From NCBI RefSeq assembly GCF_002860325.1, contig NZ_PKOJ01000002.1:310001-374000 (forward strand): DNA of 64,000 bases. Direction: 5' to 3'. Of the stretch, positions 4,493 through 56,233 are shown in pieces (position 1 is the first letter of the stretch; each line of letters opens with the position of its first letter). A program made the translations under genes and the position numbers. Under the pieces are notes generated by a model. That model made no database searches and had not been told where the DNA came from. It saw nothing but the letters and a program-made list of their open reading frames with translations. This DNA is from Neptunicoccus cionae (GTDB lineage: Bacteria > Pseudomonadota > Alphaproteobacteria > Rhodobacterales > Rhodobacteraceae).

Positions 4493-4550
4493 GGTTAACG
4501 CTGAAGCTTCATTTAAGAAGCTTCATTTATGACGCTTCATATTTGCAGGG
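4493..4550 (-). repeat. 14-bp palindrome array, copy A (3 units)
   Basis: On the minus strand: leader CCCTGCAAATAT (4550-4539), then GAAGCGTC (4538-4531), GAAGCTTC (4524-4517) and GAAGCTTC (4510-4503) separated by 6-nt AT-rich spacers (ATAAAT, TTAAAT), then a border containing GTTAACC (4499-4493). Units start exactly 14 bp apart. It lies in a 421-bp gap, about 120 bp in front of the decarboxylase gene and about 110 bp in front of the small minus-strand frame. The same design recurs at 9973, 11648 and 56186. Confidence 0.85.
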
Positions 4551-4672
4551 TCTTAATCGGGATACACACCGCGTGCCCCCGCGTTCGTACATTCGCAGGC
4601 AGGACAATCACCCCCTTGCCAGCCTCCCTTCCAACCGCTAGCATGTACTTAACACGTTAGCGAGATGACACG

Positions 4673-6076
4673 ATGAAATATTCCGACTACGCCAAATGGA
4701 CCAACCGCGCGACCCGCTGGATCGAAGACCATTTCGCCACGCTGCGGGACAAACCCGTCCGCGCGCAAACCGCGCCGGGTGAAATCGCAGCACGCCTTCC
4801 CGCCACACCGCCCGAACAGGCGACAGATATGGAAGCCATTATCGCGGATTTTGAACGGATTGTGCCGGATGGAATTACCCATTGGCAACATCCGCGCTTT
4901 TTCGCGTATTTCCCGTCGAACGCCGCACCTGCCTCCATGATTGCAGAGCAATTGACCAATGCCATAGCCTCCCAATGCATGCTCTGGCAGACTTCTCCGG
5001 CGGCCACCGAAATCGAAGAAGTCATGATCGACTGGCTGCGTCAGGCCATGGGGCTGCCAGAGCCGTTCAAAGGCGTCATTCAGGACAGCGCCAGCAGCGC
5101 CACACTCTCTGCTGTTCTGACGATGCGGGAACGGGCCACCGGGTTCACCGGTAACGATCAGGGCCTGTCCGGTCAGGGCCGCCTTCGGATCTACTGCTCT
5201 GCACAGGTACACAGTTCTGTAGACAAAGCCTGCTGGGTCGCAGGTATCGGTCAGGAAAATCTGGTCAAGATCCCCACCAACGCGGACTATCAAATGGACC
5301 CGGAAGCGTTGCAAGCTGCAATCTCGGCCGACCGTGCAGCCGGCCATGTACCTGCTGGGCTGGTCCTGTGCACCGGCGGCACTTCCATCGGTGCCTGTGA
5401 TGACCTGCCTCCGCTGATCAAAATCGCTAAGGCCGAAGATCTTTATACCCATCTGGATGCTGCATGGGCCGGTTCTGCCATGATCTGTCCCGAATTCCGC
5501 CCGCTCTGGGCCGGCGCCGAAGACTGCGACAGCATCGTTTTCAATCCTCACAAATGGCTGGGCGCGAACTTCGACTGTTCCATCCAGTTCCTGCGGGACG
5601 CGGACATCCAGCGCCGCACTATGGGCCTGCGCCCCTCCTATCTGGAAACGCCCCAAGCGCAGGAGATCACGAATTTCAACGAATGGACTGTGCCGCTTGG
5701 CCGTCGCTTCCGTGCGTTAAAGCTCTGGTTCCTGATCCGCGCTTACGGGCTGGAAGGCTTGCGTAGCCGCATCCGCAACCATGTGGCCTGGACGAAAGAG
5801 CTGGAATCCAAACTGCGCGCGCATCCAGACTTCACAATCACCACAGACAGCAGACTCGCCCTCTTTACCTTCCAGTTCACGCCCGAGGGCAAGGACGCAG
5901 ACGCGGCTTCGGCAGATCTGTTGCAGCGGATCAATGATGACGGCCGCATCTATCTGACCCAAACCCTGCATGACGGGCGCTACGTCATCCGGTTCACCGC
6001 CGGGCAGTTCGATTGTACCCGCGACGACGTGATGACAGCCTACGACGTGATTACCGAACTGGCAGCTTCGACCTAA
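4673..6076 (+). CDS. PLP-dependent aromatic-L-amino-acid-type decarboxylase
   Basis: 467-residue group II decarboxylase of the DOPA/tryptophan/tyrosine decarboxylase family. It removes the carboxyl group of an amino acid to give an amine, using pyridoxal phosphate. Seen: PLP-stacking His180 in QVHSSVDKA, cofactor-binding Asp262 in HLDAAWAGSA, the Schiff-base Lys294 in NPHKWLGANFDCS, and ICPEFR typical of eukaryote-like AADCs. The ATG at 4673 has only a weak GAGATGA upstream. A palindrome array sits about 120 bp upstream, and a hairpin follows at 6087. The neighbours do not reveal the substrate; aromatic amino acids are the family default. Confidence 0.88.
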   Translation: MKYSDYAKWTNRATRWIEDHFATLRDKPVRAQTAPGEIAARLPATPPEQATDMEAIIADFERIVPDGITHWQHPRFFAYFPSNAAPASMIAEQLTNAIASQCMLWQTSPAATEIEEVMIDWLRQAMGLPEPFKGVIQDSASSATLSAVLTMRERATGFTGNDQGLSGQGRLRIYCSAQVHSSVDKACWVAGIGQENLVKIPTNADYQMDPEALQAAISADRAAGHVPAGLVLCTGGTSIGACDDLPPLIKIAKAEDLYTHLDAAWAGSAMICPEFRPLWAGAEDCDSIVFNPHKWLGANFDCSIQFLRDADIQRRTMGLRPSYLETPQAQEITNFNEWTVPLGRRFRALKLWFLIRAYGLEGLRSRIRNHVAWTKELESKLRAHPDFTITTDSRLALFTFQFTPEGKDADAASADLLQRINDDGRIYLTQTLHDGRYVIRFTAGQFDCTRDDVMTAYDVITELAAST

Positions 6077-6086
6077 AGGCACAAGG

Positions 6087-6105
6087 CGGGCTCTCCCCGA
6101 GCCCG
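6087..6105 (+). terminator. Hairpin after the decarboxylase gene
   Basis: CGGGCTC (6087-6093) and GAGCCCG (6099-6105) form a 7-bp GC stem with a TCCCC loop 11 bp after the stop codon. The U-tract is missing, so termination may be inefficient or the hairpin may protect the 3' end. Confidence 0.45.
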
Positions 6106-6142
6106 TCCAACTCCCGAAAACGACGTTTTTGACGCGAACAGA

Positions 6143-6174
6143 CAAGCCTGCCCGCTTTTTGCGGCGCAGGCTTG
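6143..6174. repeat. Strong hairpin upstream of the MttB-family gene
   Basis: CAAGCCTGC (6143-6151) pairs with GCAGGCTTG (6166-6174). The inner CCGC/GCGG around TTTTT extends the stem to 13 bp with one bulged C. It is nested inside a looser outer pairing of CAACTCCCGAA (6107-) with TTCGGGAGAGTTG (6181-). It could be a bidirectional terminator or a leader structure for the downstream gene. Confidence 0.5.
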
Positions 6175-6198
6175 AACCAGTTCGGGAGAGTTGCCGCC

Positions 6199-6297
6199 AT
6201 GATCGACCTTGATTGGATGACAGCATTGATTTCACGCACCATAGGTGCGGATCGCGGTCGCGCGGCGCGAGGATCGCCACGGGAATACAGCCGCTAG
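6199..6297 (+). CDS. Possible 32-residue leader ORF
   Basis: An ATG frame starting MIDLDWMTALISR and ending REYSR, preceded by GGGAGAG about 8 nt upstream and ending 33 bp before the methyltransferase start. The ribosome site is better than that of the methyltransferase itself, so it could be a leader peptide or small protein. No recognisable family; the evidence is only the ribosome site, the position and the open frame. Confidence 0.25.
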   Translation: MIDLDWMTALISRTIGADRGRAARGSPREYSR

Positions 6298-6330
6298 AAC
6301 CCGATCCGAAGCTTTCAAGGCAAATACCCT

Positions 6331-7869
6331 ATGTCAGATACACAATCCCGTCGTTCAGGAGGCCGCGCCGCACGTCAGGCCCTGCGCGCGGCCCCTCTTA
6401 CTGATGCCATCCGTCCGGTCCGCGCCGGTATGGAAGGTGGCAGATACAAACCCCTTTCCGAAGCCGCTGAAAAGCGCATTTATCAGGCCGCACTCGACGC
6501 GATGGAACAGATCGGCTTTGCCGACGCACCGCCTTCGGGCGTGGAAATCCTGACCAAAGCTGGCGCCATTTTGGGCGATGACGGGCGCATCCGCTTCCCC
6601 CCTGCGCTGGTGGAAGACATGCTCGCCAAAGCCAACCGCACTGTCACATTGCACGGGCGCGATCCGAAACACGATATGATCCTGTCGGGCAACCGCGTTC
6701 ATTACGGCACCGCAGGCGCTGCAGTGCATCTGGTGGATGTAGAAAACAACGACTACCGCGAATGCACCGTGCAGGATCTTTATGATGCGGCGCGGATTGT
6801 CGACCGGCTCGACAACGTCCACTTTCTGCAACGCCCGATGGTATGTCGCGACATTCCCGACAATTATGAAATGGACCTGAACACGATCTATGCCTGCTGT
6901 TCGGGCACGACGAAACACGTTGGCACCTCATTCACCGAGCCTTCCTTCATGAAGGGCGCCTTCGAGCTGATTTATGAAATAGCCGGAGGCGAGGACGCCT
7001 TTCGTGCCCGACCCTTCATCTCAAACTCCAACTGTTTCGTCGTTCCACCGATGAAATTCGCAACGGAATCCTGTGAGGTGATGGAACACTGTGTGCGCGG
7101 CGGAATGCCGGTGCTGTTGCTTTCAGCAGGTCAGGCAGGGGCCACCGCCCCCGCCCCGATCGCGGGCGCCATTGTGCAGGCGGTGGCGGAATGTCTGGCC
7201 GGTATGGTCTATGTCAACGCTATGGCACCGGGACATCCCACGGTCTTTGGCACATGGCCGTTCGTGTCAGACCTGCGCACCGGCGCCATGTCGGGCGGCT
7301 CCGGCGAGCAAGCCCTGCTGACCGCGGCCTGCGCGCAGATGCACCACTTCCTCGGCTTGCCCGGCGGTGCGGCGGCCGGGATAGCAGATGCAAAGATGCC
7401 CGATATGCAGGCCGGATACGAACAGGCCCATTCCAACGTCATGGCGGGGCTGGCCGGTCTGAATATGGTTTATGAATCCGTCGGGATGCACGCCTCCCTG
7501 CTTGGGTTCTGTCTTGAAAGCCTGATCATCGGGGACGATCTTCTGGGCCAGTCCCTGCGCTGCGTCCGCGGGATCGAGGTCAACGAAGATACCGTCTCTC
7601 TCGATGTCATCCGCTCGGTCTGTCTGGAAGGTCCGGGGCATTATCTGGGGTCGGCTCAGACCTTGTCGCTGATGCAGACGGAATACATCTACCCTGCACT
7701 CGGGGACCGCAGTTCTCCGAAGGAATGGGCGGAACTGGGCAAGCCTGACCTGATCCAGAAAGCCATCAAACGCAAGAATGAAATTCTGGCCGAGCCGTCC
7801 AAAGCGCGGTTTGATCCGAAAACCGATGCGGCGATCCGCGAGGCTTTCCGGATACATTTGCCCGCGTAA
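6331..7869 (+). CDS. MttB-family (trimethylamine methyltransferase-like) protein, non-pyrrolysine
   Basis: 512-residue TIM-barrel protein of the MttB superfamily, whose members pass a methyl group from a quaternary or tertiary amine to a corrinoid protein. The reading frame has no internal UAG, so it belongs to the non-pyrrolysine branch; characterised members demethylate glycine betaine (MtgB), proline betaine (MtpB) and L-carnitine (MtcB). Seen: an Arg-rich N-terminus (RRSGGRAARQALRA) typical of alphaproteobacterial members, IGFADAPPSGVEIL, GGSGEQALL and AKMPDMQAGYEQ. No corrinoid protein or reactivase is encoded nearby, so substrate and methyl acceptor are unknown. The ribosome site is weak. 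An inverted repeat and a MarR gene follow. Confidence 0.85.
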   Translation: MSDTQSRRSGGRAARQALRAAPLTDAIRPVRAGMEGGRYKPLSEAAEKRIYQAALDAMEQIGFADAPPSGVEILTKAGAILGDDGRIRFPPALVEDMLAKANRTVTLHGRDPKHDMILSGNRVHYGTAGAAVHLVDVENNDYRECTVQDLYDAARIVDRLDNVHFLQRPMVCRDIPDNYEMDLNTIYACCSGTTKHVGTSFTEPSFMKGAFELIYEIAGGEDAFRARPFISNSNCFVVPPMKFATESCEVMEHCVRGGMPVLLLSAGQAGATAPAPIAGAIVQAVAECLAGMVYVNAMAPGHPTVFGTWPFVSDLRTGAMSGGSGEQALLTAACAQMHHFLGLPGGAAAGIADAKMPDMQAGYEQAHSNVMAGLAGLNMVYESVGMHASLLGFCLESLIIGDDLLGQSLRCVRGIEVNEDTVSLDVIRSVCLEGPGHYLGSAQTLSLMQTEYIYPALGDRSSPKEWAELGKPDLIQKAIKRKNEILAEPSKARFDPKTDAAIREAFRIHLPA

Positions 7870-7877
7870 ACTTTTTA

Positions 7878-7921
7878 CCTGACCCCGTGTGAGAAACAAA
7901 TCTTTCCATTGCGGGGTCAGG
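7878..7921. promoter_or_regulatory. 10-bp perfect inverted repeat in front of the MarR gene
   Basis: CCTGACCCCG (7878-7887) and CGGGGTCAGG (7912-7921) are perfect complements separated by 24 nt. The right arm runs into the AGGAG ribosome site of the regulator's GTG start, so in RNA the hairpin would hide it; in DNA it could be an operator or serve as terminator of the upstream gene. No U-tract follows. Confidence 0.5.
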
Positions 7922-7928
7922 AGCTATA

Positions 7929-8396
7929 GTGAACCTGTTAGATAGTTTCAGACAGGCACATCTCTACATGAGCAAATTCTTCGTCAAGACAGATGAATCC
8001 CTCCCCATTATGCTGCTCCGCGCGCGAGAGGCCGTGATGTGCCGGATACGGCCCTTCCTGATAAAACACGACCTGTCAGAGCAACAATGGCGGGTCCTGC
8101 GCATCCTGGACGAAGTCGGCCCGTTAGAACCCACCGAACTCGGGGAACGCTGCATGGTGCTCACGCCGAGCCTGACCCGTATTCTCTCTCTTTTGGAAAA
8201 GCGCCAGATGATCCGCCGTGAACAGCACCCCACGGACCGGCGCAAACAGATCATTCATCTGGCCGGTCCGGGCCAGGATGTTATTGCCAAAATTGCGCCG
8301 GAAGCCCAGAAAATCTATGAAGATCTGGAAGAGCATTTCGGGAAACCGCAGATGATCAACCTGTTGAACAAGTTGAAAAAACTGTCAGAGTTTTAG
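7929..8396 (+). CDS. MarR-family regulator, HpaR type
   Basis: 155-residue winged-helix repressor. The segment LLRAREAVMCRIRPFLIKHDL followed by SEQQWRVLRILDEVG is the hallmark of the HpaR branch (homoprotocatechuate-operon repressors), with the recognition helix around LTPSLTRILSLLEKRQMI and wing DRRKQIIHL. GTG at 7929 with AGGAG 5 nt upstream is chosen; ATG at 7968 (MSKFFVK) is the alternative. It is convergent with the PcaB-like lyase, overlapping by 3 bp at the stops. HpaR proteins respond to aromatic acids, which fits an aromatic-degradation neighbour, but the other hpa or pca genes are not here, so its targets are unknown. Confidence 0.85.
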   Translation: MNLLDSFRQAHLYMSKFFVKTDESLPIMLLRAREAVMCRIRPFLIKHDLSEQQWRVLRILDEVGPLEPTELGERCMVLTPSLTRILSLLEKRQMIRREQHPTDRRKQIIHLAGPGQDVIAKIAPEAQKIYEDLEEHFGKPQMINLLNKLKKLSEF

Positions 8397-9736
8397 GCGT
8401 TTTCCGGTTTCTGCTTCGCCACCAAAGCACAAAACCGTCCCACAATCTCTGCGGATTCGCCAAGGGCGGTTTGCGCGTCAAACACACGGTCCCAGTCAAT
8501 CGGAAGAACTGTTTCGCGCGCCATGACAGCGCGGAGGGGCTCGCCGGTTTCAGCGGCTTTGGCACAGGCCGATTTGGTCAGCGCACGGGCATCCGCAAGG
8601 GGCATGTGTTCCGCCAGTGCAAAACTCGCCGCTTCGGCCATCATCAGACCGTTTGTCTCTTCAAATACACGTGCCAGCCTGTCCGGATCCACGCTTAGGG
8701 ATGCCGACAGCGCGATTCCGTGACGCAGGGCTGCCCCCGTGGCCACAATCAGGGACGGCAGGGACAGCCATTCCTGCGACCATGCGGCACCGTCCCGCTC
8801 CTGCGCGTGAAACGCCGCGCCTGCGACCTGCGCGGCAAGCCCCTGCCCCTGCCGGGCCAGTGCCAGCATCGCCTCTGCTCCGGTCGGATTGGCTTTGTGT
8901 GGCATCGTGCTGGATCCGCCACCGGCACCGGCTCGCAGGCCGTCCCCGATCTGTGCTGACAGCAAAAGGTCCTGCGCCATCTTGCCAAGCGATCCACAGA
9001 TCAATCCGCACAAGTTTGCCAGTTCGCAAATTCCGTCCCGCGCCGAATGCCACGGTAAGTCCGCACGACCAAGACCAAGCTCGTCCGCAAGCGCATCCGC
9101 CGTTTTCATCCCCCGCCCTTCAAATGCAGAGAGATTGCCCGATGCACCGGCGAGCGAGACCACCAGCACGCGAGGGCGCAGTTCCGCAAGCCGCTGGCGG
9201 TGGCGCAAAAACGGCGCCCCCCAGCCTGCAATTCGCGCTCCGAGTGCTGTCGGCGTGGCGATCTGATGGCGCGTCCGCGCGCCCATAGGGATGGATTTAA
9301 AGGCTTCGGCCTGCGCCGCCAGCGTATCCAGCAATGATACAAGCCGTGCGTCCAGAATATCGAGCACGCGACGCAGACGCAGGACCAGTGCTGTATCTAT
9401 AATATCTTGCGAGGTCGCCCCCTTGTGCAGATAGGCGCTGTGCTCGGGGGCTTGCATTTCCGTTGCAAAAGTCGAAACCAGCGCAGGCACTACCACTCCG
9501 TCCCGCGCAATACCGGCGGCCAGATGTCCGGGATCGATCAGCACTTCACGCGCCATGCGATTGATGATCTCTCCGCTTTCCTGCGGGATCGTGCCAAGCT
9601 TGCCCTGTGCCGAAGCGAGCGCCCCTTCAACCAGCAACATTGCGCGGACCTCGGCGCTGTCAGAAAACAACACCGAAAGTTCGCTATCCCCGAACAAACC
9701 TTTAAACATTTGCCCTTCGGCCAGAGAAATCGCCAT
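8393..9736 (-). CDS. pcaB: 3-carboxy-cis,cis-muconate cycloisomerase-like protein (PcaB)
   Basis: 447-residue member of the fumarase/aspartase superfamily. PcaB cycloisomerises carboxy-muconate to carboxymuconolactone in the protocatechuate branch of the beta-ketoadipate pathway. Seen: the superfamily signature SSTMPHKANPTGAE at about 275-288 with its flexible glycine loop, HKGATSQDIIDTA at about 104-116, and catalytic-region QIATPTALG. Length fits PcaB (about 440-450). The ATG has CAGGTG upstream. No other pca gene lies in the window, which is unusual because pcaB normally sits in pcaDCHGB-type operons; another lyase activity is possible. It shares the 342-bp divergent region 9737-10078 with the esterase gene. 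Confidence 0.78.
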   Translation of the reverse strand: MAISLAEGQMFKGLFGDSELSVLFSDSAEVRAMLLVEGALASAQGKLGTIPQESGEIINRMAREVLIDPGHLAAGIARDGVVVPALVSTFATEMQAPEHSAYLHKGATSQDIIDTALVLRLRRVLDILDARLVSLLDTLAAQAEAFKSIPMGARTRHQIATPTALGARIAGWGAPFLRHRQRLAELRPRVLVVSLAGASGNLSAFEGRGMKTADALADELGLGRADLPWHSARDGICELANLCGLICGSLGKMAQDLLLSAQIGDGLRAGAGGGSSTMPHKANPTGAEAMLALARQGQGLAAQVAGAAFHAQERDGAAWSQEWLSLPSLIVATGAALRHGIALSASLSVDPDRLARVFEETNGLMMAEAASFALAEHMPLADARALTKSACAKAAETGEPLRAVMARETVLPIDWDRVFDAQTALGESAEIVGRFCALVAKQKPENA

Positions 9737-10078
9737 ATTCGCACCTGTCTTTCATTTTGGCGCGACCATACATTTTGCAGTTCCGAAGGTCATCCCGAAT
9801 TTTAAGAAAGAATGCACAGGATCGTCCTAACGTCACCTTGGGGGTGTGCACAGCAGGCTGCCTTACCCGAGACCGGTGCGGGGGGCCTGTATTGGGACTT
9901 AAAATGTTCGGGAACGCCGGATTTTACCACACTCCAAGATACTGATATTAATACCTAAACACGGTTAACATACTGCACATATGAAGCTTCATATAAGAAG
10001 CTTCTTAAATGAAGCTTCAAGGTTAACCATTCATTAGGAAAGTCTTGCGGCGCTCTGCAACCGGTCCTAAGTTGAGGC
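9737..10078. other. Divergent intergenic region, 342 bp
   Basis: Lies between the pcaB-like gene (minus) and the esterase gene (plus). It must hold both promoters. Apart from the palindrome array at 9973-10028, only a small CACC/GGTG hairpin near 9836 was noticed. No tRNA and no convincing small gene were seen. Confidence 0.6.
9973..10028 (+). repeat. 14-bp palindrome array, copy B (3 units)
   Basis: Leader CTGCACATAT (9973-9982), then three perfect GAAGCTTC palindromes at 9983, 9997 and 10011 with spacers ATATAA and TTAAAT, then GGTTAACC (10021-10028). The block 9982-10019 is itself a near-perfect 38-bp palindrome centred on the middle unit (18 of 19 pairs match). It sits about 50 bp upstream of the esterase start. 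Confidence 0.85.
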
Positions 10079-10996
10079 ATGGATTATTCAAAGCACATCG
10101 ACGCCGAAACTTGGGATTTCATCAATAAAACAGCCGAGTATTATCCGCCGGATACGGTGGAAAGCTCCATCGAACAGCAACGTGAAATCTACGATACCAT
10201 GTGCCGTGCCTTCTTCACCGGCTATCCGGATGGCGTCAGTGCAACGGACGAGAAGATCGGCCATATACCAACGCGCCAGTACACTTGCGGCGGTTCTGAA
10301 ACGACCGTGATGTATTTCCACGGCGGCGGTTTTGTGGTCGGGGGGCTCGACTCTCATGACGATGTCTGCGCCGAAATTTGTGAGCGCACCGGAATGGATG
10401 TGGTTTCGGTGGATTACAGGATGGCGCCGGAGCATAAACACCCTGCCATGTTTGACGACTGTCTTGCAGCGACAAAACACATTCTGGCGACCCGCGAAGG
10501 AACGGTCATCCTTGCTGGTGACAGTGCCGGTGGCAATCTCGGTGCGACGGTCAGCCACCGGCTGCGCAACGAACCGCGTTTGATTGGTCAGGTTCTGATC
10601 TATCCGGGTCTTGGCGGGGACATTGATGCCGGGTCCTTTCTGACCCACGCCAATGCGCCCATGCTGACACGGGATGAAATCCTGTTCTATGAAGGTGTGC
10701 GCTATGACGGGCCAAAACCCACAAATGATCCTACAGCCGTGCCGCTTCAGGACACCGATTTCTCGAATCTGCCCCCTACAGTTCTGATATCTGCGGAATG
10801 CGACCCGATCACAGACGGTTGTCGTGACTACCGCGATGCTCTGACAGCCGCCGGTTGCAAGGTGGTCTGGTTCAATGAAACAGGTCTGATTCACGGCTAC
10901 CTGCGCGGGCGTCATACCGTCAAACGGGCACGGGACAGCTTTGACAGGGTCATCGCCGCTCTGAACGCGCTACGGCAGCGGGACTGGCCATATTGA
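10079..10996 (+). CDS. Alpha/beta hydrolase, HSL-type esterase/lipase
   Basis: 305-residue serine esterase of the hormone-sensitive-lipase family. It likely hydrolyses short-chain carboxylic esters in the cytoplasm; no signal peptide. Seen: oxyanion motif HGGGF at 81-85, nucleophile Ser149 in GDSAGG, Asp in SAECDPITD, and His in LIHGYLRG. The GAGG next to the ATG is very close, so initiation may rely on the leader. The sulfotransferase gene begins 24 bp downstream, so the two are probably cotranscribed. Substrate unknown. Confidence 0.88.
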   Translation: MDYSKHIDAETWDFINKTAEYYPPDTVESSIEQQREIYDTMCRAFFTGYPDGVSATDEKIGHIPTRQYTCGGSETTVMYFHGGGFVVGGLDSHDDVCAEICERTGMDVVSVDYRMAPEHKHPAMFDDCLAATKHILATREGTVILAGDSAGGNLGATVSHRLRNEPRLIGQVLIYPGLGGDIDAGSFLTHANAPMLTRDEILFYEGVRYDGPKPTNDPTAVPLQDTDFSNLPPTVLISAECDPITDGCRDYRDALTAAGCKVVWFNETGLIHGYLRGRHTVKRARDSFDRVIAALNALRQRDWPY

Positions 10997-11020: not shown

Positions 11021-11626
11021 ATGATGATCGACTACGAACGCAAACTGGTGTTTCTTTCCAATCGCAAGGTTGCGTCTACCTCCATGGAACGCGCTCTTGG
11101 TCAGATCAAAGGCATGGCGCGGATGAATGGCAATCCGGTACTTAAACATGTGGATTTTACCCGTTACAAGCGGATGGAGCAGCCCTTACGCACCAAAGGG
11201 TTTACCACAATCACCGTGGTACGAGAGCCGTTCAACAAGGCCGTCAGCTGGTATAAATTCCGCGCCCGACCGGAGTTGAAAGGTGATCCCCGCTACGTCG
11301 GGCATCTGGATTTCGAAACATTTCTGAACAACTTCATTTCCGGCAAAAGCGGCTGGGCGATGGAATTTCTGGACAACCTGTTCTGCATCGACAACCGCAG
11401 CGGAGAGTCCGTCGACATCATTCACAAATACGAAAACCTCGGCGCGTTTGAAACCCTGCTGCGCAACATCTACGGCGAAGACTTCGCCCTGCCGCATCTG
11501 AATGTATCCGCTGCCGTTGCTGAAACCGATTATTCCGTTCATCGTGCAGGCTACGAAGCCGCCTTTCCGGAGGCTTTTGACTGGTATCGCGCCCTGCCCG
11601 AAGCTGCTGTAAAAATCAATATATAG
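11021..11626 (+). CDS. Sulfotransferase-family protein
   Basis: 201-residue protein with the two cofactor motifs of PAPS-dependent sulfotransferases: the 5'-phosphosulfate loop SNRKVASTSME at about 13-23 and the 3'-phosphate motif VVREPFNKAVSWYKF at about 66-80. The arrangement is that of the carbohydrate-type family 2, usually membrane-linked in animals; this one has no signal peptide or membrane segment. Likely role is transfer of sulfate to a glycan or small hydroxylated acceptor. It follows the esterase gene by 24 bp. The acceptor is unknown. Confidence 0.8.
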   Translation: MMIDYERKLVFLSNRKVASTSMERALGQIKGMARMNGNPVLKHVDFTRYKRMEQPLRTKGFTTITVVREPFNKAVSWYKFRARPELKGDPRYVGHLDFETFLNNFISGKSGWAMEFLDNLFCIDNRSGESVDIIHKYENLGAFETLLRNIYGEDFALPHLNVSAAVAETDYSVHRAGYEAAFPEAFDWYRALPEAAVKINI

Positions 11627-11647
11627 GGGTGCCGCGCCGCCCGATCA

Positions 11648-11723
11648 CCCTGCAAATATGAAGCTTCATTCAAGACGCGTCATATATGAAGCTTCATGTA
11701 TGAAGCGTCTTAAATGAAGTTTC
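11648..11723 (+). repeat. 14-bp palindrome array, copy C (5 units)
   Basis: Leader CCCTGCAAATAT (11648-11659), then units at 11660 GAAGCTTC, 11674 GACGCGTC, 11688 GAAGCTTC, 11702 GAAGCGTC and 11716 GAAGTTTC, exactly 14 bp apart, with spacers ATTCAA, ATATAT, ATGTAT and TTAAAT. Unit 2 differs from unit 1 at two symmetric positions and is still a perfect palindrome. It lies between two convergent genes, where no promoter is expected. Confidence 0.87.
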
Positions 11724-11817
11724 ACAATTATTGTGCCATAAATTTTCCCCATTAAAAACAGCCCCTACCCTTTCAAGGCGGCCGTCACAGTCACCAGCGA
11801 TTTACGCTACCTATCCG

Positions 11818-12654
11818 TCAGGTCAGAAACGGCTTCGCTTTCATGGTTTCAGGCACTTCTGCCCCTAACCGCGTCAGGATCGTAGGCGCGAGTTGAACCT
11901 GCTCCAGTACTGTATCTGCAGACGGCCCCTGCCCCTGCCCGAAGTAATACAGCGCAAATTCCTGTTGCAGCGCGGATCGGCCCCCGTGATGGCCCCTTTC
12001 GTCCTGCCCGTGATCTGCCGTCACAATGATCTCATAACCCGCCGCCCGCCATCTTGGCAGGAAGGGCGCAAGCATCTCGTCCATTATGAAACAAGCACCG
12101 TCCATTTCTTCACTTTCGTGAAAGTAGCGATGCCCCATACTGTCCAGCGTACAGGTGTGCAGCATTCCATAGTCCAGCCCGAACCGCATACACAGATTGG
12201 TCAGCGTGCCAAACAGGTCCAGATCACAGGGCGTCATCTGGTTGGCACGACCATAGCCTGTCATTGTGTGAAAGCGCCCGTGGTTGATCGTTTCGCTTTC
12301 CGGCTCGTCGTATTCCACGTCCCGAACATTATCAAAAGGCGAACGGTTGAAGAATTCGGACCAGAAGGAATGGGCAACGGCCCCCGTTACCCCGCCAGCC
12401 TGACGCACCTGCGAAAACACGTCAGGATGTTTCAGGCGGAAAACATTCCCGTTTCCGGTACAGCCATGCTCGGCGGGCACAACGCCAGTATGGATCGAGG
12501 CATAACAACTTGCTGAAATCGAAGGCAGAACAGAGCGCATCTTCCATTTTTGCGCATTGCCCGCGTCAACATGGCCTTCCAGATTGCCAAACAACCGGCC
12601 CCAGTTGCGCCAAGGAACGCCGTCCAGAATAATCAGTAGCAGTTTGTTGTTCAT
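11818..12654 (-). CDS. Alkaline-phosphatase-family phosphodiesterase / nucleotide pyrophosphatase-like protein
   Basis: 278-residue metal-dependent hydrolase of the alkaline phosphatase superfamily. Seen: metal-binding Asp in LLLIILDGVPW near the N-terminus, the nucleophile region LPSISASCYASIHTG (Ser or Thr), and metal ligands in TLDSMGHRYFH and TADHGQDERGHHGG. The closest type is the type I phosphodiesterase/nucleotide pyrophosphatase branch. ATG at 12654 with GGGGAGA upstream is chosen over an in-frame extension of 56 codons, because the extension overlaps the regulator gene and the core fold begins at MNNKLL. No signal peptide, so probably cytoplasmic. Substrate unknown. Confidence 0.82.
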   Translation of the reverse strand: MNNKLLLIILDGVPWRNWGRLFGNLEGHVDAGNAQKWKMRSVLPSISASCYASIHTGVVPAEHGCTGNGNVFRLKHPDVFSQVRQAGGVTGAVAHSFWSEFFNRSPFDNVRDVEYDEPESETINHGRFHTMTGYGRANQMTPCDLDLFGTLTNLCMRFGLDYGMLHTCTLDSMGHRYFHESEEMDGACFIMDEMLAPFLPRWRAAGYEIIVTADHGQDERGHHGGRSALQQEFALYYFGQGQGPSADTVLEQVQLAPTILTRLGAEVPETMKAKPFLT

Positions 12655-12724
12655 CGCTGTCTCCCCGCATTGTTCGTCCGTTACACCAACGCAGATCAGG
12701 GCGGGAAAGCAAGCCTGTTTTCCG

Positions 12725-13096
12725 TCAAGCCGCGGCGGTTTCGCGCTCGTCAAAGGCGCTACGGCTGTCTCGAATGGAAGGTTGGTTTTCCTCTGCCCAG
12801 CGGGACAGCGCAGAAATTGCACCGTGCAACGAATGGCCCAAATCTGTCAGCCCGTAATCTACTTGCGGAGGCTTGACGTCCATTACGCGGCGTACCACCA
12901 GCCCGTCCCGCTCCAGATGGCGCAACGTAACCGAAAGCATACGGGGTGAAATTCCTCCGATTACACGGCAGAGCGCATTAAATCGCGCATTTCCCTTCGA
13001 CAGTTCCAGAATGACCAGAACCGACCAGGCATCACCGACGCGGTCCAGCACATCCCGTACCGGACAATCATAGTTCTGTGCCCGCTTCGCACACAT
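12725..13096 (-). CDS. HxlR-family transcriptional regulator
   Basis: 123-residue winged-helix protein. Seen: the family N-terminus with conserved Cys11 (YDCPVRDVLDRVGDAWSVLV), helix-turn-helix ISPRMLSVTLRHLERDGLVVR, and wing VDYGLTDLGHSL. The conserved Cys is the redox or electrophile sensor in several family members (YodB, HypR). It is divergent from the NAD(P)-binding gene, and two palindromes that fit HxlR operators lie between them (13149-13180). The layout resembles E. coli ytfH/ytfG. GGAGGGAAG precedes the ATG. Confidence 0.92.
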   Translation of the reverse strand: MCAKRAQNYDCPVRDVLDRVGDAWSVLVILELSKGNARFNALCRVIGGISPRMLSVTLRHLERDGLVVRRVMDVKPPQVDYGLTDLGHSLHGAISALSRWAEENQPSIRDSRSAFDERETAAA

Positions 13097-13822: not shown

Positions 13823-13824
13823 TT

Positions 13825-50445: not shown

Positions 50446-50538
50446 CGTTATCTTACCGCAGACACTAGGTCTGATGCCCCTTGGTCAGCTTAATATTGTG
50501 CATTTTCCCTAAATGTCACGAAGAAAAATACGGACAAT

Positions 50539-51294: not shown

Positions 51295-51303
51295 GGTGAC
51301 AGA

Positions 51304-52401
51304 ATGACCGAAGAGTCCTACAGCGACATGATTTCCCCGATCGAGGACATCATTGCCGATGCCAAGGCGGGCAAGATGTTTATCCTCGTAGACCACGAGG
51401 ACCGCGAGAACGAAGGCGATCTGGTAATCCCTGCGCAAATGGCCACGCCCGAAGCGGTGAACTTCATGGCGACCCACGGGCGCGGGCTGATCTGCCTGTC
51501 CCTTGAATCCAAGCGGCTGAACGCCTTGGGCCTGCCGATGATGGCGACGGCCAATTCATCCCGTCATGAAACCGCTTTTACTGTGTCTATCGAAGCGCGC
51601 GAAGGCGTTACGACCGGAATCTCGGCCCATGACCGCGCCAGGACTATTGCTGTGGCAATAGACGAAAACAGCGGCCCGCAGGACATCGCCACCCCCGGCC
51701 ATGTGTTCCCGTTGCGCGCCCGAGAAGGCGGCGTTCTGGTTCGCGCCGGTCACACCGAAGCGGCCGTGGATGTCTCCCGTCTGGCAGGATTGAACCCGTC
51801 GGGCGTGATCTGCGAGATTATGAATGACGACGGCACCATGGCCCGCCTGCCCGATCTGGTGGCCTATGCGCAGTTGCACGGGCTTAAGATCGGTACGATT
51901 TCCGACCTGATCGCCTATCGCCTGCGCTATGACAATCTGGTCAGCGAAACCGCCAACCGGAACGTCACCTCCAGCTACGGTGGCGACTGGAACCTGCGGA
52001 TTTTCACAGACAAGACCAATGACACGGAACATGTTGTCCTTGTGAAAGGCGACATCACCACCCCCGAACCGGTGTTGGTGCGCACCCACGCGATGAACCC
52101 GCTAGAGGACCTTCTGGGCCTTGGCCCCGCCCCTGCCGGTGAACTGGCCCGCGCGATGGAAACCATTGCAGAGGAAGGGCGCGGCGTTGTCATGCTGTTC
52201 CGCGACCTTGAGGCCAAATTGCAACTGGACGAGGACTCGACACCGCGCCAATTGCGCTATACTGGGCTTGGCTCGCAGATCCTCTCCTCTCTGGGATTGC
52301 GGGATTTCATCCTGCTGACCAATTCTCCCATGCCCAAAGTGATAGGTCTGGAAGCCTATGACCTGAACATTGTGGGCACACGCCCCATTAAGAAAGCTTG
52401 A
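51304..52401 (+). CDS. ribB: 3,4-dihydroxy-2-butanone-4-phosphate synthase with decayed GTP cyclohydrolase domain (RibBX)
   Basis: 365 residues. The N-terminal domain (about 1-215) is a complete RibB: DHEDRENEGDL, RHETAFTVSIEAREGVTTGISAHDR and GVLVRAGHTEAAVDVSRLAG hold its metal and substrate residues. The C-terminal domain resembles GTP cyclohydrolase II but lacks the zinc cysteines (the expected SECLTGD...RCDCG region reads VRTHAMNPLEDLLGLGP). This hybrid is known as RibBX in proteobacteria; only the RibB activity is expected. Ribulose-5-phosphate goes to the four-carbon unit for lumazine. Start MTEESYSDM; M at 51328 is also possible. Confidence 0.93.
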   Translation: MTEESYSDMISPIEDIIADAKAGKMFILVDHEDRENEGDLVIPAQMATPEAVNFMATHGRGLICLSLESKRLNALGLPMMATANSSRHETAFTVSIEAREGVTTGISAHDRARTIAVAIDENSGPQDIATPGHVFPLRAREGGVLVRAGHTEAAVDVSRLAGLNPSGVICEIMNDDGTMARLPDLVAYAQLHGLKIGTISDLIAYRLRYDNLVSETANRNVTSSYGGDWNLRIFTDKTNDTEHVVLVKGDITTPEPVLVRTHAMNPLEDLLGLGPAPAGELARAMETIAEEGRGVVMLFRDLEAKLQLDEDSTPRQLRYTGLGSQILSSLGLRDFILLTNSPMPKVIGLEAYDLNIVGTRPIKKA

Positions 52402-52404
52402 TCC

Positions 52405-52959
52405 ATGGCCGGTTCCGAAACCCATTACGTCCTGCCCAGCCCGAAATTCGACGGGGACGCGCCTCATCTGCTGATCGTGGTGTCGCCTTACTATAAGGAC
52501 ATCGCCGACAATCTGGTGGACGGCGCCAAGGCCGCGATAAGTGCAGCAGGGGCAACATATGAACTGGCCGAAGTTCCGGGCGCACTGGAAATTCCGACGG
52601 CCATCCGGCTTGCTGGCCGGTCCAACGAATTCGACGGCTTTGTGGCGCTTGGCTGCGTCATCCGCGGTGAAACCACCCATTATGACACAGTTTGCAACGA
52701 TTCCAGCCGTGCAATCAGCCTGCTGGGACTGGACGGCTATTGCATCGGCAACGGCATCCTGACAGTTGAGAACCGCACACAAGCAGAAGTCCGCGCCGAC
52801 AGCACAGGCCAGAACAAGGGCGGCGGCGCAGCCGAGGCCGCGCTTCATCTGATTGCCCTGTCACAGCGCTTTTTGAAAAAAACCAAAGGTATCGGGTTCA
52901 AACCCGCGTCCGAGAACATCTTGATGGCGGGCGAAAACAAGGACACAAAAACAGCATGA
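52405..52959 (+). CDS. ribH: 6,7-dimethyl-8-ribityllumazine synthase
   Basis: 184 residues. Joins the four-carbon unit from RibB with the pyrimidine from RibD. Seen: VVSPYYKDIADNLVDGA, EVPGALEIPTAIRLA, GCVIRGETTHYD with the catalytic His, and GNGILTVENRTQA. The C-terminus is slightly longer than in the E. coli protein (156). Starts 3 bp after the RibBX stop and overlaps nusB by 4 bp (ATGA), showing coupling. Confidence 0.95.
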   Translation: MAGSETHYVLPSPKFDGDAPHLLIVVSPYYKDIADNLVDGAKAAISAAGATYELAEVPGALEIPTAIRLAGRSNEFDGFVALGCVIRGETTHYDTVCNDSSRAISLLGLDGYCIGNGILTVENRTQAEVRADSTGQNKGGGAAEAALHLIALSQRFLKKTKGIGFKPASENILMAGENKDTKTA

Positions 52960-53417
52960 AACCCGCTGACAAACGACAAATAAAATCCGCCACTCGGATG
53001 TATCTGGTGCAGGCCCTGTTCCAGATGGAAGCTTCTGATACGGACGCGGAAACCGTACGTGAAGAATTTCTGAACCATCGCTTTGGTGCGCAAGAAGAAG
53101 AACACGAATGGTTGGAGGGCAACGCCAGCTTTTTTGAACGGCTGTTGCTGGCTGCTGTCAGCAATCAGGCCAAGATCGATCAGCACACCGATCAGGCTCT
53201 GGTAGAGAAATGGCCACTGAAACGGATTGACCCGACCTTACGGGCGCTGTTCCGCGCTGCGGGTGCCGAACTCGTCAGCGAAGCGACCCCTCCTAAAGTG
53301 GTGATTTCGGAATATGTAGACGTGACCAAAGCCTTCTTCCCAGAGGGACGCGAATCCAAATTCGTGAATGCGGTGCTGGACCACATGGCCCGCGCCTTTC
53401 AGCCCGACAAATTCTGA
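52956..53417 (+). CDS. nusB: Transcription antitermination factor NusB
   Basis: 153-residue all-helical RNA-binding protein of the rRNA antitermination complex. Seen: TRMYLVQALFQME near the N-terminus, and the C-terminal half KWPLKRIDPTLRALFRAAGAEL followed by KVVISEYVDVTKAFFPEGRESKFVNAVLD, which is diagnostic. ATGA overlap with ribH. The ribH-nusB link is standard across bacteria. Confidence 0.95.
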   Translation: MKPADKRQIKSATRMYLVQALFQMEASDTDAETVREEFLNHRFGAQEEEHEWLEGNASFFERLLLAAVSNQAKIDQHTDQALVEKWPLKRIDPTLRALFRAAGAELVSEATPPKVVISEYVDVTKAFFPEGRESKFVNAVLDHMARAFQPDKF

Positions 53418-53445
53418 CGCGGGTCCAAATCCGGCAAAAACGGCA

Positions 53446-53482
53446 GTTCCCTGTCGGGAACACAACAGGTTTTGCGACAGGG
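53446..53482 (+). promoter_or_regulatory. Two mutually exclusive hairpins between nusB and the MFS gene
   Basis: GTTCCC/GGGAAC (53446-53451, 53456-53461) and CCCTGTCG/CGACAGGG (53449-53456, 53475-53482) share bases and cannot form together. The second lacks a U-tract. The alternation resembles a small attenuator, but could simply be a nusB 3'-end structure. Confidence 0.35.
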
Positions 53483-53521
53483 ACGGGCCAAGCTGCAGGG
53501 AAACGAGGTTAAAAACTTCTT

Positions 53522-54736
53522 ATGCGTTTGCTGATTTCCTTTGCGGCCCTGTTCCTGTCGATTACCTTCCTCCAGTTATCCTCCGGCGCGATTGGCCCGC
53601 TTGATGCCCTGTCAGGACACAAGCTCGGGTTTTCCAACAACGAAATCGGTATACTGGGCTCGGCGCATTTTCTGGGATTCTTCGTCGGTTGCTGGTGGTC
53701 TCCCCGTTTGATGGGATCGGTTGGCCATACCCGCGCCTTTGCAGCTTTCGCCGCCTTCGGAGCCATTGGTGCCATCGCCCATCCCCTGATGCCGGATCCT
53801 ACGGCCTGGGCCATCATGCGGATCATGACCGGACTGTGTGTTGCAGGCTGCTACACCGTGATCGAGGCCTGGATGCAGGCCAAGCTGACCAACCAGACGC
53901 GGGGCCGTGTTATGGCGACCTACCGCGTGGTGGACATCGGCGCGTCTTCGCTGGCGCAATTGATGATCGGGGTTCTGGAACCGGGCTCCTATGTATCCTA
54001 CAATCTGCTGGCGATCCTGTGCTGCGCCTGTTTGTTCCCGTTGACGCTGTCCCGTATCGAACAGCCCAAAGTTCCTGTCGCCCCCAGATTGCACCCAATC
54101 CGCACCGCGATTCTCTCCCCGCTTGGCGCGGCAGGCGTCATGGTAGCGGGCACCACATCCGCCGCATTCCGGATGGTATCCCCGATTTACGGGCAGGAAA
54201 TTGGCCTGACCGCCCAGCAGATCGGTTCGTTTCTGGCTACAGTTCTGATCGGCGGTGCGGTGGCACAGTTTCCGGCGGGCTATCTGGCGGACAAGTTTGA
54301 CCGGCGACATGTTCTGATCGGCCTTTCGGTGGCCTCTGTCGTAGTCTGCGTGGGCTTCTCTTTCGTTAGGCCCGAAACCATCGGCTCTGTCTATGTTATG
54401 GCCGCCCTGTTCGGTATCATGACCTTTCCGATCTTTTCCGTGTCTGCCGCCCACGCAAATGACTTTGCCAAGCCCGAGAACATCGTAGAGGTGAACGCCT
54501 CCCTGATGTTCATCTATGCCGTCGGCGCCATCCTCAGCCCTGTGGTCGCAACCGCGCTGATTACAGGATTCGGCCCGTCGGCCCTGTTCCTGTTCATTTC
54601 CGGTGCCCATGTCTTTCTGGTCGTCTTCGGTCTGGCGCGGATGTACGCCCGCCCAACCAGCGACACCAGAACACGTTACAAATATGTGCCGCGCACATCC
54701 TATATCGTCGGGCGTCTGTTACGCAGGAAACGATAA
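53522..54736 (+). CDS. MFS transporter
   Basis: 404-residue inner-membrane protein with about 12 membrane helices. Signature-like loop WWSPRLMGSVGHTRAF between helices 2 and 3, YLADKFDRRHVLIG between helices 8 and 9 (the second-half equivalent). Closest to the YcaD/sugar-phosphate-antiporter-like small MFS group; substrate not readable. Positive C-terminal tail (VGRLLRRKR). It lies about 100 bp after nusB and may have its own promoter. Confidence 0.88.
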   Translation: MRLLISFAALFLSITFLQLSSGAIGPLDALSGHKLGFSNNEIGILGSAHFLGFFVGCWWSPRLMGSVGHTRAFAAFAAFGAIGAIAHPLMPDPTAWAIMRIMTGLCVAGCYTVIEAWMQAKLTNQTRGRVMATYRVVDIGASSLAQLMIGVLEPGSYVSYNLLAILCCACLFPLTLSRIEQPKVPVAPRLHPIRTAILSPLGAAGVMVAGTTSAAFRMVSPIYGQEIGLTAQQIGSFLATVLIGGAVAQFPAGYLADKFDRRHVLIGLSVASVVVCVGFSFVRPETIGSVYVMAALFGIMTFPIFSVSAAHANDFAKPENIVEVNASLMFIYAVGAILSPVVATALITGFGPSALFLFISGAHVFLVVFGLARMYARPTSDTRTRYKYVPRTSYIVGRLLRRKR

Positions 54737-54778
54737 TCCGCACCTACCGACGTAACGTAGGGCAGGATTCGCACATTC

Positions 54779-54797
54779 TGGTCAATCCGTTTGACCA
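54779..54797. promoter_or_regulatory. Palindromic operator-like site before the FMN dehydrogenase
   Basis: TGGTCAA-TCCGT-TTGACCA: perfect 7-bp arms with a 5-nt spacer, about 77 bp upstream of the dehydrogenase ATG. The TGGT...ACCA pattern resembles sites of the FadR/LldR branch of GntR regulators, which control lactate dehydrogenase genes. No such regulator is encoded nearby. Confidence 0.55.
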
Positions 54798-54873
54798 ATC
54801 CGGCCACATCCCCACTTGAGCCTTTCGTCGCCTTGATCCTATTCTACCGGAAATTCCCGAAGAGAGGTCAGCC

Positions 54874-56037
54874 ATGGCACCCATTACCAACATTTACGAT
54901 TTGAAAGCCCTGCACAAGCAACGCACACCGCGCATGTTCTATGACTATGCGGAAAGCGGCAGTTGGAGCGAGCAGACCTTTCGGGACAATGTTGACGACT
55001 TCTCGCGCCTGCGCCTGCGTCAGAAAGTGGCCGTGGACATGACAAACCGCAACACGCGGATGTCCATGCTCGGGCAGGAATATGCCATGCCGGTCGCACT
55101 GGCCCCGATTGGAATGCTTGGCATGCAACACCCTGACGGGGAAATCCATGCCGCGCAGGCAGCAGAAGAGTTCGGCGTTCCCTTTACCCTGTCCACCATG
55201 TCGATCTGTTCCATCGAAGATGTGGCCGAGAAAACAACAAAACCTTTCTGGTTCCAGCTTTACGTGATGCGGGACCGTGATTTCATCAACCGCCTGATCG
55301 ACCGCGCCAAGGCGGCAAACTGCTCGGCGCTGGTCCTGACCTATGATCTGCAAATTCTCGGGCAGCGCCACAAGGACATCAAGAACGGCCTCTCCGCCCC
55401 GCCCCGTCTGACACTGCCCAACATCCTGAACATCGCGACCAAACCGCGTTGGGCTTATAACATGCTCAACACCAAGCGGCGCAGCTTCCGCAATATCATC
55501 GGCCATGTGCAAGGCGTGGACGACATGTCAAACCTGTCGGCATGGACAGCAGAACAGTTTGACCCGACGCTGGACTGGAACGATGTGGCATGGATCAAGG
55601 AACGCTGGGGCGGACCCCTGATCCTGAAGGGTATCCTTGACGTGGAAGACGCCAAAAAAGCGGTCGAAGTCGGTGCCGACGCGTTAATCGTGTCAAACCA
55701 CGGCGGGCGACAGCTTGACGGGGCGATGTCCTCTATACGGATGTTGCCGGATATTGTTGACGCTGTAGGAGATCAGATCGAGGTGCATATGGACGGGGGC
55801 ATCCGCTCCGGTCAGGACGTACTGAAGGCAATTTCGCTGGGGGCCAAGGGTACGATGATCGGCCGGTCCTTCGTGCACGGACTTGGCGCGATGGGGCGCG
55901 AAGGTGTGAAAACCGCGCTGGAGGTGATCCACAAAGAGCTCGACACGACAATGGCGCTCTGCGGGGAACGGGACCTGAACAATATGGGGCGGGACAACCT
56001 TCTGATTCCAAAAGATTTCCGCGGCGAGTGGGAATAG
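54874..56037 (+). CDS. lldD: FMN-dependent alpha-hydroxy-acid dehydrogenase, L-lactate dehydrogenase (LldD)-like
   Basis: 387 residues, TIM-barrel flavoprotein. Seen: the FMN and active-site motif SNHGGRQLDG at about 271-280 with the catalytic His, APIGMLGMQHPDGE, LVLTYDLQILGQRHKD (where family members have TVD or TYD), and HMDGGIRSGQDVLKA. It oxidises L-lactate or a related 2-hydroxy acid and passes electrons to the quinone pool at the membrane. AGAGAGG precedes the ATG. The palindrome upstream supports regulation by a GntR protein. Glycolate or mandelate-type substrates cannot be excluded. Confidence 0.9.
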   Translation: MAPITNIYDLKALHKQRTPRMFYDYAESGSWSEQTFRDNVDDFSRLRLRQKVAVDMTNRNTRMSMLGQEYAMPVALAPIGMLGMQHPDGEIHAAQAAEEFGVPFTLSTMSICSIEDVAEKTTKPFWFQLYVMRDRDFINRLIDRAKAANCSALVLTYDLQILGQRHKDIKNGLSAPPRLTLPNILNIATKPRWAYNMLNTKRRSFRNIIGHVQGVDDMSNLSAWTAEQFDPTLDWNDVAWIKERWGGPLILKGILDVEDAKKAVEVGADALIVSNHGGRQLDGAMSSIRMLPDIVDAVGDQIEVHMDGGIRSGQDVLKAISLGAKGTMIGRSFVHGLGAMGREGVKTALEVIHKELDTTMALCGERDLNNMGRDNLLIPKDFRGEWE

Positions 56038-56063
56038 GCAAAGACCAACCGGCAACCCGCTGA

Positions 56064-56095
56064 ACCACCCGCTTGCACAGCAGCGGGTGGTTTTT
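56064..56095 (+). terminator. Rho-independent terminator of lldD
   Basis: ACCACCCGC (56064-56072) and GCGGGTGGT (56083-56091), a perfect 9-bp stem with a 10-nt loop, followed by TTTT, 26 bp after the stop. Confidence 0.9.
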
Positions 56096-56185
56096 CTGTC
56101 TGTGATGAAAGAAGTAGCCGGACACAAAAGTAAACGGGTGGTTTTCAATCCGCTGCCCTGCATGACTGCGCCTTTTTCCTTATGA

Positions 56186-56233
56186 CCCTGCAAATATGAA
56201 GCGTCATGTATGAAGCTTCATTTAAGAAGCTTC
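56186..56233 (+). repeat. 14-bp palindrome array, copy D (3 units)
   Basis: Leader CCCTGCAAATAT (56186-56197), then units GAAGCGTC (56198), GAAGCTTC (56212) and GAAGCTTC (56226), spacers ATGTAT and ATTTAA, exact 14-bp period. It lies between lldD and rplY, both on the plus strand, about 290 bp in front of rplY, within a 482-bp gap. Confidence 0.86.

Follow-up and report, generated by a model that had tools for sequence, protein, structure and literature searches.

The genome of Neptunicoccus cionae (G000) carries a dispersed family of short palindromic arrays that share one symmetric motif, lie mostly between convergent genes, and keep their positions in close relatives while their unit number turns over; two of the sites are empty in more distant relatives. 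Each element consists of one to seven copies of the palindromic 8-mer GAMGCKTC, repeated exactly every 14 bp with 6-bp AT spacers. We tentatively read the elements as cooperative arrays for a putative sequence-specific dimeric DNA-binding protein whose role lies at the level of the chromosome, not of the promoter, a reading towards which we lean but which we would stop just short of calling probable. Protein binding, the dimeric state and the architectural role are what we infer from the arrays.

Array design and the copies in the window

Four copies, A to D, lie in the window (the whole 64-kb stretch of DNA that was analysed). The places, unit numbers (3, 3, 5 and 3) and exact 14-bp step given for them in the original prediction were all reproduced in the sequence.

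4484..4556, minus strand: copy A; conserved end ATATTTGCAGGGTCTTAA at 4539-4556, three units at 4503-4538, and on the other side a TTAA-N7-TTAA-like box at 4484-4498, 4 bp off the array
9965..10037, plus strand: copy B; end TTAACATACTGCACATAT at 9965-9982, three units at 9983-10018, TTAA-N7-TTAG box at 10023-10037
11642..11742, plus strand: copy C; end CGATCACCCTGCAAATAT at 11642-11659, five units at 11660-11723, the last being GAAGTTTC, degenerate box at 11728-11742
56180..56251, plus strand: copy D; end TTATGACCCTGCAAATAT at 56180-56197, three units at 56198-56233, second, variant end ATATAGGCAGTATGTTGA at 56234-56251

The last spacer in copies A, B and C is TTAAAT, just as had been described. 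The border thought to be common to A and B proved shorter: both contain GTTAACC but not the full GGTTAACC, copy A reading GCGTTAACCGG on its minus strand. The leader is likewise present but is not confined to one end, and the second, variant leader of copy D holds GGCAGTATG. With up to two mismatches allowed, the two-unit pattern occurs 12 times in the window against 0.34 expected (100 shuffles, largest count 2).

Across the 84 elements examined, 264 of 301 units fit GAMGCKTC exactly. The single form GAAGCTTC, which lacks CGTC, accounts for 144 of the 301, and some other variants contain CGTC-N6-GACG. A conserved outer end, TTATSACMCTGCANATAT, bounds at least one side of 22 of the 23 multi-unit elements and can stand at both sides of one element. 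Many remaining ends carry a box of the pattern TTAA-N7-TTAA, a putative CtrA box, at a distance of 4 bp from the array; among the 16 ends in G000 that lack CTGC, a mean of 5.06 of its 8 letters are matched at this spacing, compared with 1.3-3.4 at other offsets. The half-site TAWGAMG shows near-equal base counts on both strands (149/35/32/1 and 140/43/32/2 at the first position) and near-invariant A and G positions, and its degenerate positions are identical and two-fold symmetric over all sites, as looked for in operators of a dimeric DNA-binding protein. Each half-site would face a partner both over the 8-mer and over the spacer, which would leave room for one dimer per 14 bp; CCCTGCAAATAT, the outer end, may then serve as a conserved array boundary, with the TTAA-N7-TTAA box placed 4 bp past the opposite end in many elements.

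The genes on either side of the four copies are as follows.

3433..4251, plus strand: PEP-mutase/isocitrate-lyase family protein, left of A (PF13714)
4673..6076, plus strand: PLP-dependent decarboxylase, right of A (PF00282)
8393..9736, minus strand: lyase nearest to 3-carboxy-cis,cis-muconate cycloisomerase, left of B (PF00206; NCBIfam match below cut-off)
10079..10996, plus strand: alpha/beta hydrolase, right of B (PF07859)
11021..11626, plus strand: sulfotransferase-family protein, left of C (PF03567, E 2e-5, a weak match just over cut-off)
11818..12822 (open reading frame), minus strand: type I phosphodiesterase family protein, right of C (PF01663; gene-caller start 12654)
54874..56037, plus strand: L-lactate dehydrogenase (FMN) family protein, left of D (NF008398 over cut-off)
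56520..57161, plus strand: ribosomal protein bL25, right of D (NF004128 over cut-off)

Number and placement across the genome

The original prediction had asked for a genome search and had named as unfavourable an outcome with four copies only and relatives without conservation; this outcome did not occur, and the family is far larger than four, with 24 elements found among the listed matches, to which weaker elements may add. The exact two-unit pattern gave 38 forward matches in the whole genome and none in the reversed control, and 83 against 18 with up to two mismatches.

No element lies inside a called gene, and one overlaps a gene end by 2 bases. Fifteen occupy convergent gaps, eight tandem gaps and one a divergent gap, a convergent share (15/24) well above that of the other gaps of at least 50 bp (7/101; Fisher p 1.4e-8). 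The settings described for the window (tandem for A and D, divergent for B, convergent for C) are correct but atypical of the genome, where convergent gaps dominate. The earlier suspicion that a simple promoter operator would not suffice is borne out by this distribution, by neighbours without evident common function (the 24 sites have 48 immediate neighbours, among which no common pathway was found) and by the solitary sites. Sought with at most one mismatch in seven genomes, solitary dimer sites numbered 52 forward and 41 in the control, no clear excess (12 against 5 in G003; 10 against 8 in G000, one of the ten inside an array), and exact ones were two, in G042 and G005, with none in G000, G004 or G016; they therefore give no lead to a self-regulating binding protein. 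Among the immediate neighbours, GapR, a LacI-family regulator and other candidates for the binding protein occur once each, without special link.

The elements occupy 6 of 17 contigs (2.76 of 4.29 Mb), a restriction with a probability of about 2.5e-5 for 24 elements that is indicative only, the contigs having been picked after the matches were seen. On the largest contig there is about one element per 100 kb. Spacing on contig C1 is more regular than random (CV 0.49 vs 0.93, p 0.016), a post hoc result for C1 alone, and on C10 the elements are clustered, with A, B and C within 7.2 kb. Both replichores carry elements, which are not gathered at parS/ori (parS lies at 222.6-224.9 kb of C1, the nearest elements at 106 and 349 kb), and a partition centromere is thus unlikely. 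On C15, where the sign of the skew changes between two 8-kb loci, this change has one element on either side. Neither exclusion from the terminus nor concentration there was seen across the unordered contigs, and the exact outer end shows no bias with respect to replication strand (10/17).

Conservation, gain and loss among relatives

Five of the 33 genus genomes examined bear elements (G000, G003, G004, G005 and G016). For the 24 G000 sites, an element stands at the orthologous place 24 times in G004 (N. sediminis; 23 by the finder and one of a single unit) and 20 times in G016, the other four places not being scored as empty. Unit number varies at 14 of the 20 sites present in all three genomes. 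Orthologues of copy A have five units in G004, five in G016 and two in G003, and the corresponding gap in G042 is empty (~49 bp); copy B has three units in both G004 and G016, copy C five and two, respectively, and copy D four in both. The same places in close relatives, together with changing unit numbers, suggest that the elements are landing sites for a putative DNA-binding protein and did not arise as a chance repeat. Of the orthologous ends, 31 of 32 in G004 and 28 of 28 in G016 retain CTGC, with sequence agreement of 0.89 and 0.94 against 0.74 for non-orthologous ends. By a gapped measure, the gap flanks agree at 0.65 (G004) and 0.78 (G016), compared with 0.56 and 0.57 for random pairs. 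Saturation has not been reached in these flanks, least of all in the comparison with G016 (0.78), and positional conservation and motif identity could also arise from slow decay with array homogenisation.

Gain and loss are visible at individual loci. The recN-ptsP gap spans 241-286 bp and holds an element in G000, G016 and G004, whereas in G003, G005, G042 and G008 it is empty, at 3-42 bp; the ccrM gap measures 264-265 bp with the element versus 91-116 bp, empty, in G042 and G003. When eight G003 loci were compared, the copy A site alone was common to G000. Seven G004 sites have no match among the G000 loci, and three of these have a counterpart in G016, in one case on a single side. Two genomes nested in the clade on the tree lack the elements: G042 has no leader match, and G008 has no two-unit match and two non-consensus leader matches. 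If a system acts through the arrays, these congeners indicate that it is dispensable.

Competing explanations and relation to known systems

The elements could instead be a REP/MITE-like extragenic family without host function, which spread in the ancestor of the clade, has been immobile since, and descends vertically while slippage alters the 14-bp units; we regard this as possible, though on balance doubtful. Dispersed intergenic copies with inverted ends, gaps enlarged beyond the array's own length, and sites that vary by lineage (recN-ptsP and ccrM filled or empty, a single G003 locus in common, seven unmatched G004 sites) all fit such a history. The convergent bias also resembles that reported for REPs (PMC3733652), from which we likewise took the criteria of the superfamily. 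By these criteria, the intergenic position with convergent or unidirectional bias agrees with REPs, but the stem-loop of 20-40 bp with an unpaired GTAG/CGTC tag and short loop is replaced here by 8-bp palindromes and 6-bp AT spacers, and the RAYT/Y1 transposase of the GTAG type is missing. None of the five element genomes (G005 being 72% complete) yielded a Y1_Tnp (RAYT) gene, PF01797 being found, among the 14 genomes searched, in G008 and as short matches in G015. Two exact patterns had no match in IMG/VR, and copy C had none in plasmid or phage collections. The absence of elements from gene interiors also speaks against this history, as does the pattern of degenerate positions, which every site has in common and which is two-fold symmetric. 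Moreover, at the 24 sites the units have remained close to consensus in three species, with the CTGC ends retained as the flanks drift, which goes beyond what local slippage is expected to produce.

An RNA-level element, namely a bidirectional terminator or a hairpin stabilising the 3' ends of mRNAs from convergent genes, would suit the convergent setting, and in 33 of the 38 3' flanks that face an element, no intrinsic-terminator-like site comes before it. As single strands, five elements give better folds than their shuffles do (z -2.6 to -10.2), but good folding is expected of palindromic arrays whatever their role. Variable letters show a weak association that favours pairing, both across spacers (odds ratio 2.1, p 0.011) and inside units (1.8, p 0.030; both uncorrected for related elements), an exception to the general lack of compensatory pairing: at the outer spacer positions the association runs counter to pairing (odds ratio 0.33, p 0.001), and whole-element pairing of variable positions is at shuffle level (177/298; shuffles 182 ± 6 and 170 ± 7). 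The outer arms are less alike than shuffled ones (in G000, G004 and G016, respectively, 985, 996 and 979 of 1000 shuffles equalled or exceeded their likeness), no T-run follows the element, terminator-like sites are equally frequent in element and other convergent gaps (7/30 and 3/12), and the terminator of ccrM itself precedes the element. On the shuffle-level pairing and dissimilar arms we reject an RNA hairpin as the main explanation and consider an RNA-level role improbable. More improbable still, it seems, are operators of a regulon dispersed over the genome, with a possible link to CtrA through the TTAA-N7-TTAA boxes: the fixed 4-bp placement of that box at the 16 ends and the nine of 24 sites in tandem or divergent gaps would accord with them, but neither flanking gene starts at the gap in 15 of 24 sites, solitary operators are not clearly more numerous than in the control, the neighbouring genes are diverse, and the boxes are putative CtrA sites. 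CRISPR arrays were set aside, the spacers here being 6 bp long and recurring between elements.

Of the three options first put forward (a binding array for a dimeric protein, a nucleoid or partition site, and a non-autonomous extragenic repeat), the dimeric-protein array is thus favoured by the symmetric half-site, the positions common to three species and the lack of cross-element pairing, and the partition centromere has lost ground. With some two dozen elements, mostly in convergent gaps and at the same positions in three species, a chromosome-level role is likely for such arrays. The arrays grow and shrink while their positions are shared by the three species, and they may act as architectural, insulating or roadblock sites for a putative nucleoid-associated protein rather than in the control of single promoters. 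A more specific version, in which a predicted cooperative protein polymerises on the convergent-gap arrays as a topological insulator or transcription roadblock, and this lineage-specific chromosome-organising system arose in one clade and was lost twice (in G042 and G008), we consider unlikely.

Several known systems bear a partial likeness to these arrays. REP/BIME elements, including alphaproteobacterial CGTC-REPs, are dispersed intergenic palindromes with convergent and unidirectional bias, and CGTC-REPs are described as having no dedicated transposase, as is the case here (PMC3733652). Unlike them, the 24 elements found here are 14-bp tandem arrays of a symmetric 8-mer without RAYT, show on reading no 8-9-bp stem with a 4-5-bp loop and CCA tail, and occupy matching positions in three species while their units turn over. 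The sites of Noc (NBS), SlmA (SBS) and RacA, and matS, are single palindromes that similarly number in the tens over one chromosome and are not tied to promoters, whereas the present elements are tandem arrays with conserved ends and no terminus or origin bias was seen. Met boxes offer an analogy only: two to five tandem palindromic 8-mers are bound cooperatively by MetJ, a dimeric ribbon-helix-helix protein, but they abut at 8 bp and control promoters, in contrast to the 14-bp period and mostly convergent gaps here. Iterons and plasmid centromeres are also short tandem repeats that serve as protein-binding arrays; here, in contrast, there are 24 dispersed copies, and no replication-initiation or partition family was matched among the 48 immediate neighbours scanned. 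Literature searches with the array sequence strings gave no match, and the papers retrieved for Neptunicoccus and repeats were unrelated by title.

If the arrays bind a dedicated protein, they would be dispersed chromosomal binding sites of a new class, one in which repeat number varies, and their natural gain and loss in close relatives, including Neptunicoccus sediminis CY02, would make their role testable. If they are a relic, they would still clearly illustrate how a repeat family can have its positions in common between species while its arrays turn over.

The element family and its anatomy

The four intergenic arrays of palindromic 8-mers (units) in the window belong to a real, genome-wide family that is conserved among close relatives. 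All four copies are present as the original prediction described them, with a 14-bp period at each place (Tandem Repeats Finder), and the two-unit pattern GAMGCKTC-N6-GAMGCKTC, at up to two mismatches, matched 12 times in the window versus 0.34 expected. Across the 4.29-Mb host genome (G000, in which the window is C10:310001-374000), the exact two-unit pattern gave 38 forward matches and none for the reversed control. The 24 elements found there comprise 23 with two or more units and one single-unit element (locus L090); further, weaker elements may exist, as the two-mismatch matches (83 forward versus 18 control) were inspected in part. Searches of the open-access literature returned no published description of the element.

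Units follow the consensus GAMGCKTC and spacers WTNNAW. Exact units make up 264 of 301 from 84 elements: 30 in Neptunicoccus sediminis CY02 (G004), 23 each in G000 and MAG P03SST1bin.12 (G016), five in a further congener (G003), and three in an Amylibacter MAG (G005). Base counts of left and right half-sites are almost equal, so the code is two-fold symmetric at both 8-mer and spacer. CTGC occupies a fixed position at 118 of 168 element ends, the consensus of which is TTATSACCCTGCAAATAT (A at -13 in 118 and at -16 in 113). At least one such end is found in 22 of the 23 multi-unit G000 elements, with two in eight and none in L101. The remaining 16 G000 ends show a match to TTAA-N7-TTAA at a constant spacing of 4 bp (on average 5.06 of 8 letters; only 1.3-3.4 at other offsets), a putative CtrA box by sequence likeness. 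Minimal elements (L090 and L136, the latter in G004) consist of one GAAGCTTC flanked by two ends. The exact end CCCTGCAAATAT stands on both sides of 0/23 G000, 0/30 G004, and 1/23 G016 elements (2.7, 3.2, and 3.8 expected); thus, the elements either have an asymmetric build or avoid perfect palindromes.

Elsewhere in the window, Rfam PYLIS_3 (pyrrolysine insertion sequence mttB) matched above its gathering score at 7382-7480 (+). The match falls within an uninterrupted 512-aa MttB-family ORF (6331-7869), so the model fits a stop-free frame there.

Distribution and turnover among relatives

The exact two-unit pattern is present in 5 of 25 same-genus genomes (G000 itself, G003, G004, G005, and G016) and in 1 of 16 more distant genomes, as a single match with a GC-rich spacer. 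A DNA query with copies B and C (window 9965-10037 and 11642-11742, both +) recovered element-type matches in the same five of 33 genus genomes; it scores few candidates per genome first and is the weaker test where no pattern search was run. Among 84,980 species, the three-unit pattern matched 54 stretches, 27 from the three named relatives (G004, G005, and G016) and 27 from other taxa, and the strict AT spacer was found in all 27 of the former versus none of the latter. On a midpoint-rooted RecN and CcrM tree of 23 genomes, the five element genomes fall inside a seven-genome clade (SH-aLRT 98). Element presence requires three changes, which may represent one gain and two losses; 23 of 500 shuffles were as low, and this clustering is not a strong test. 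The other two members, G042 and G008, branch within this clade but showed no arrays: the leader (conserved outer end) pattern had no match in G042, and G008 had no two-unit match and two leader matches, both non-consensus.

Positions are shared. An element lies between the same genes at all 24 G000 sites in G004 (23 by the finder; the counterpart of L083 is the one-unit L136) and at 20 of 24 in G016, the other four being without a fetched G016 locus. Of the 20 sites with an element in all three genomes, 14 vary in unit number, with L090 and L136 counted as one unit. Of seven extra G004 loci, three have a G016 counterpart, one of which matches on a single side, and four are unmatched among fetched loci. 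Only copy A (window 4484-4556, minus strand) is common to G003 and G000, among eight fetched G003 loci; the orthologous G042 gap is about 49 bp and empty. The recN-ptsP gap is 241-286 bp with an element versus 3-42 bp, empty, in G003, G005, G042, and G008. Where the second gene was found adjacent, the ccrM gap is 264-265 bp with an element versus 91-116 bp, empty, in G042 and G003.

Flank agreement with G000 (39 pieces in G004 and 32 in G016, each 30-300 bp) was 0.65 and 0.78 over the longer length (random pairs 0.56 and 0.57) and 0.76 and 0.83 over aligned columns (random 0.70 and 0.71). The 18-bp ends agreed with their orthologues at means of 0.84 (G004) and 0.90 (G016), CTGC ends at 0.89 and 0.94 versus 0.74 with non-orthologous ends, and CTGC was retained at 31/32 and 28/28 orthologous ends. 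The ends therefore retain a shared consensus plus site-specific letters, which is evidence against wholesale site-to-site copying.

Placement on the chromosome

Judged by gene calls from our codon model, convergent gaps contain 15 of 24 G000 sites, tandem gaps eight, and a divergent gap one; only 7 of 101 control gaps (at least 50 bp, same loci) are convergent (p = 1.4e-8). Convergent sites number 17/30 in G004 and 13/23 in G016, counts that are not independent. Elements occupy both replichores of G000. The origin is marked by three exact parS sites (C1:222.6-224.9 kb), where GC skew switches sign; it switches again between two 8-kb loci of contig C15, which we take as the terminus side. On C1, the parS cluster (223 kb) sits almost at the center of the longest stretch between two elements, 106-349 kb. 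Of the 17 contigs, 11 (about 1.53 Mb in total) have none of the 24 elements found and may be other replicons.

The 48 immediate neighbours are chiefly metabolic and transport proteins with no evident common pathway; 4 of 40 in one scan set lacked a family match at 1e-8. Six of the 48 are DNA-metabolism or chromosome proteins, a post hoc observation for which no significance is claimed:

Element neighbours in DNA metabolism or chromosome biology (locus coordinates)
L098 4142-4435, GapR
L085 4171-5277, CcrM (named from Pfam domains)
L097 4134-5786, RecN (named from Pfam domains)
L099 4170-6833, PolA
L093 4165-4617, MmcB
L095 3431-3886, Ogt (named from Pfam domains)

Candidate roles

An RNA stem is probably not the main role: whole-element pairing and arm identity are no higher than in shuffles, although single strands fold well and a weak pairing-sense association exists across spacers and within units. 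The elements are also unlikely to be intrinsic terminators, since the T-run is absent and the terminator-like rate is equal with and without an element; ccrM has its own terminator. A RAYT-driven REP is improbable given a negative search of the element genomes for RAYT transposases, and elements were not seen in the phage and plasmid collections searched. Solitary dimer sites show no clear excess (52 versus 41 control over seven genomes), which argues against an ordinary regulon.

The strongest rival explanation is a retired, REP-like family of extragenic repeats. Restriction to one clade, dispensability of the system, and the enlarged gaps that accompany elements all favor it, but the unit motif and ends drift less than the flanks. 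The symmetric code, identically degenerate across many sites and several species, points to a putative dimer that recognizes it in trans, and the 14-bp spacing suggests that the predicted protein would load cooperatively along the arrays. We infer all three: the putative binding protein, its binding, and its role. Convergent placement, the absence of common neighbours, and shared positions together suggest that the elements have a chromosome-level role, which may be insulation, topology, or a roadblock where transcription units collide.
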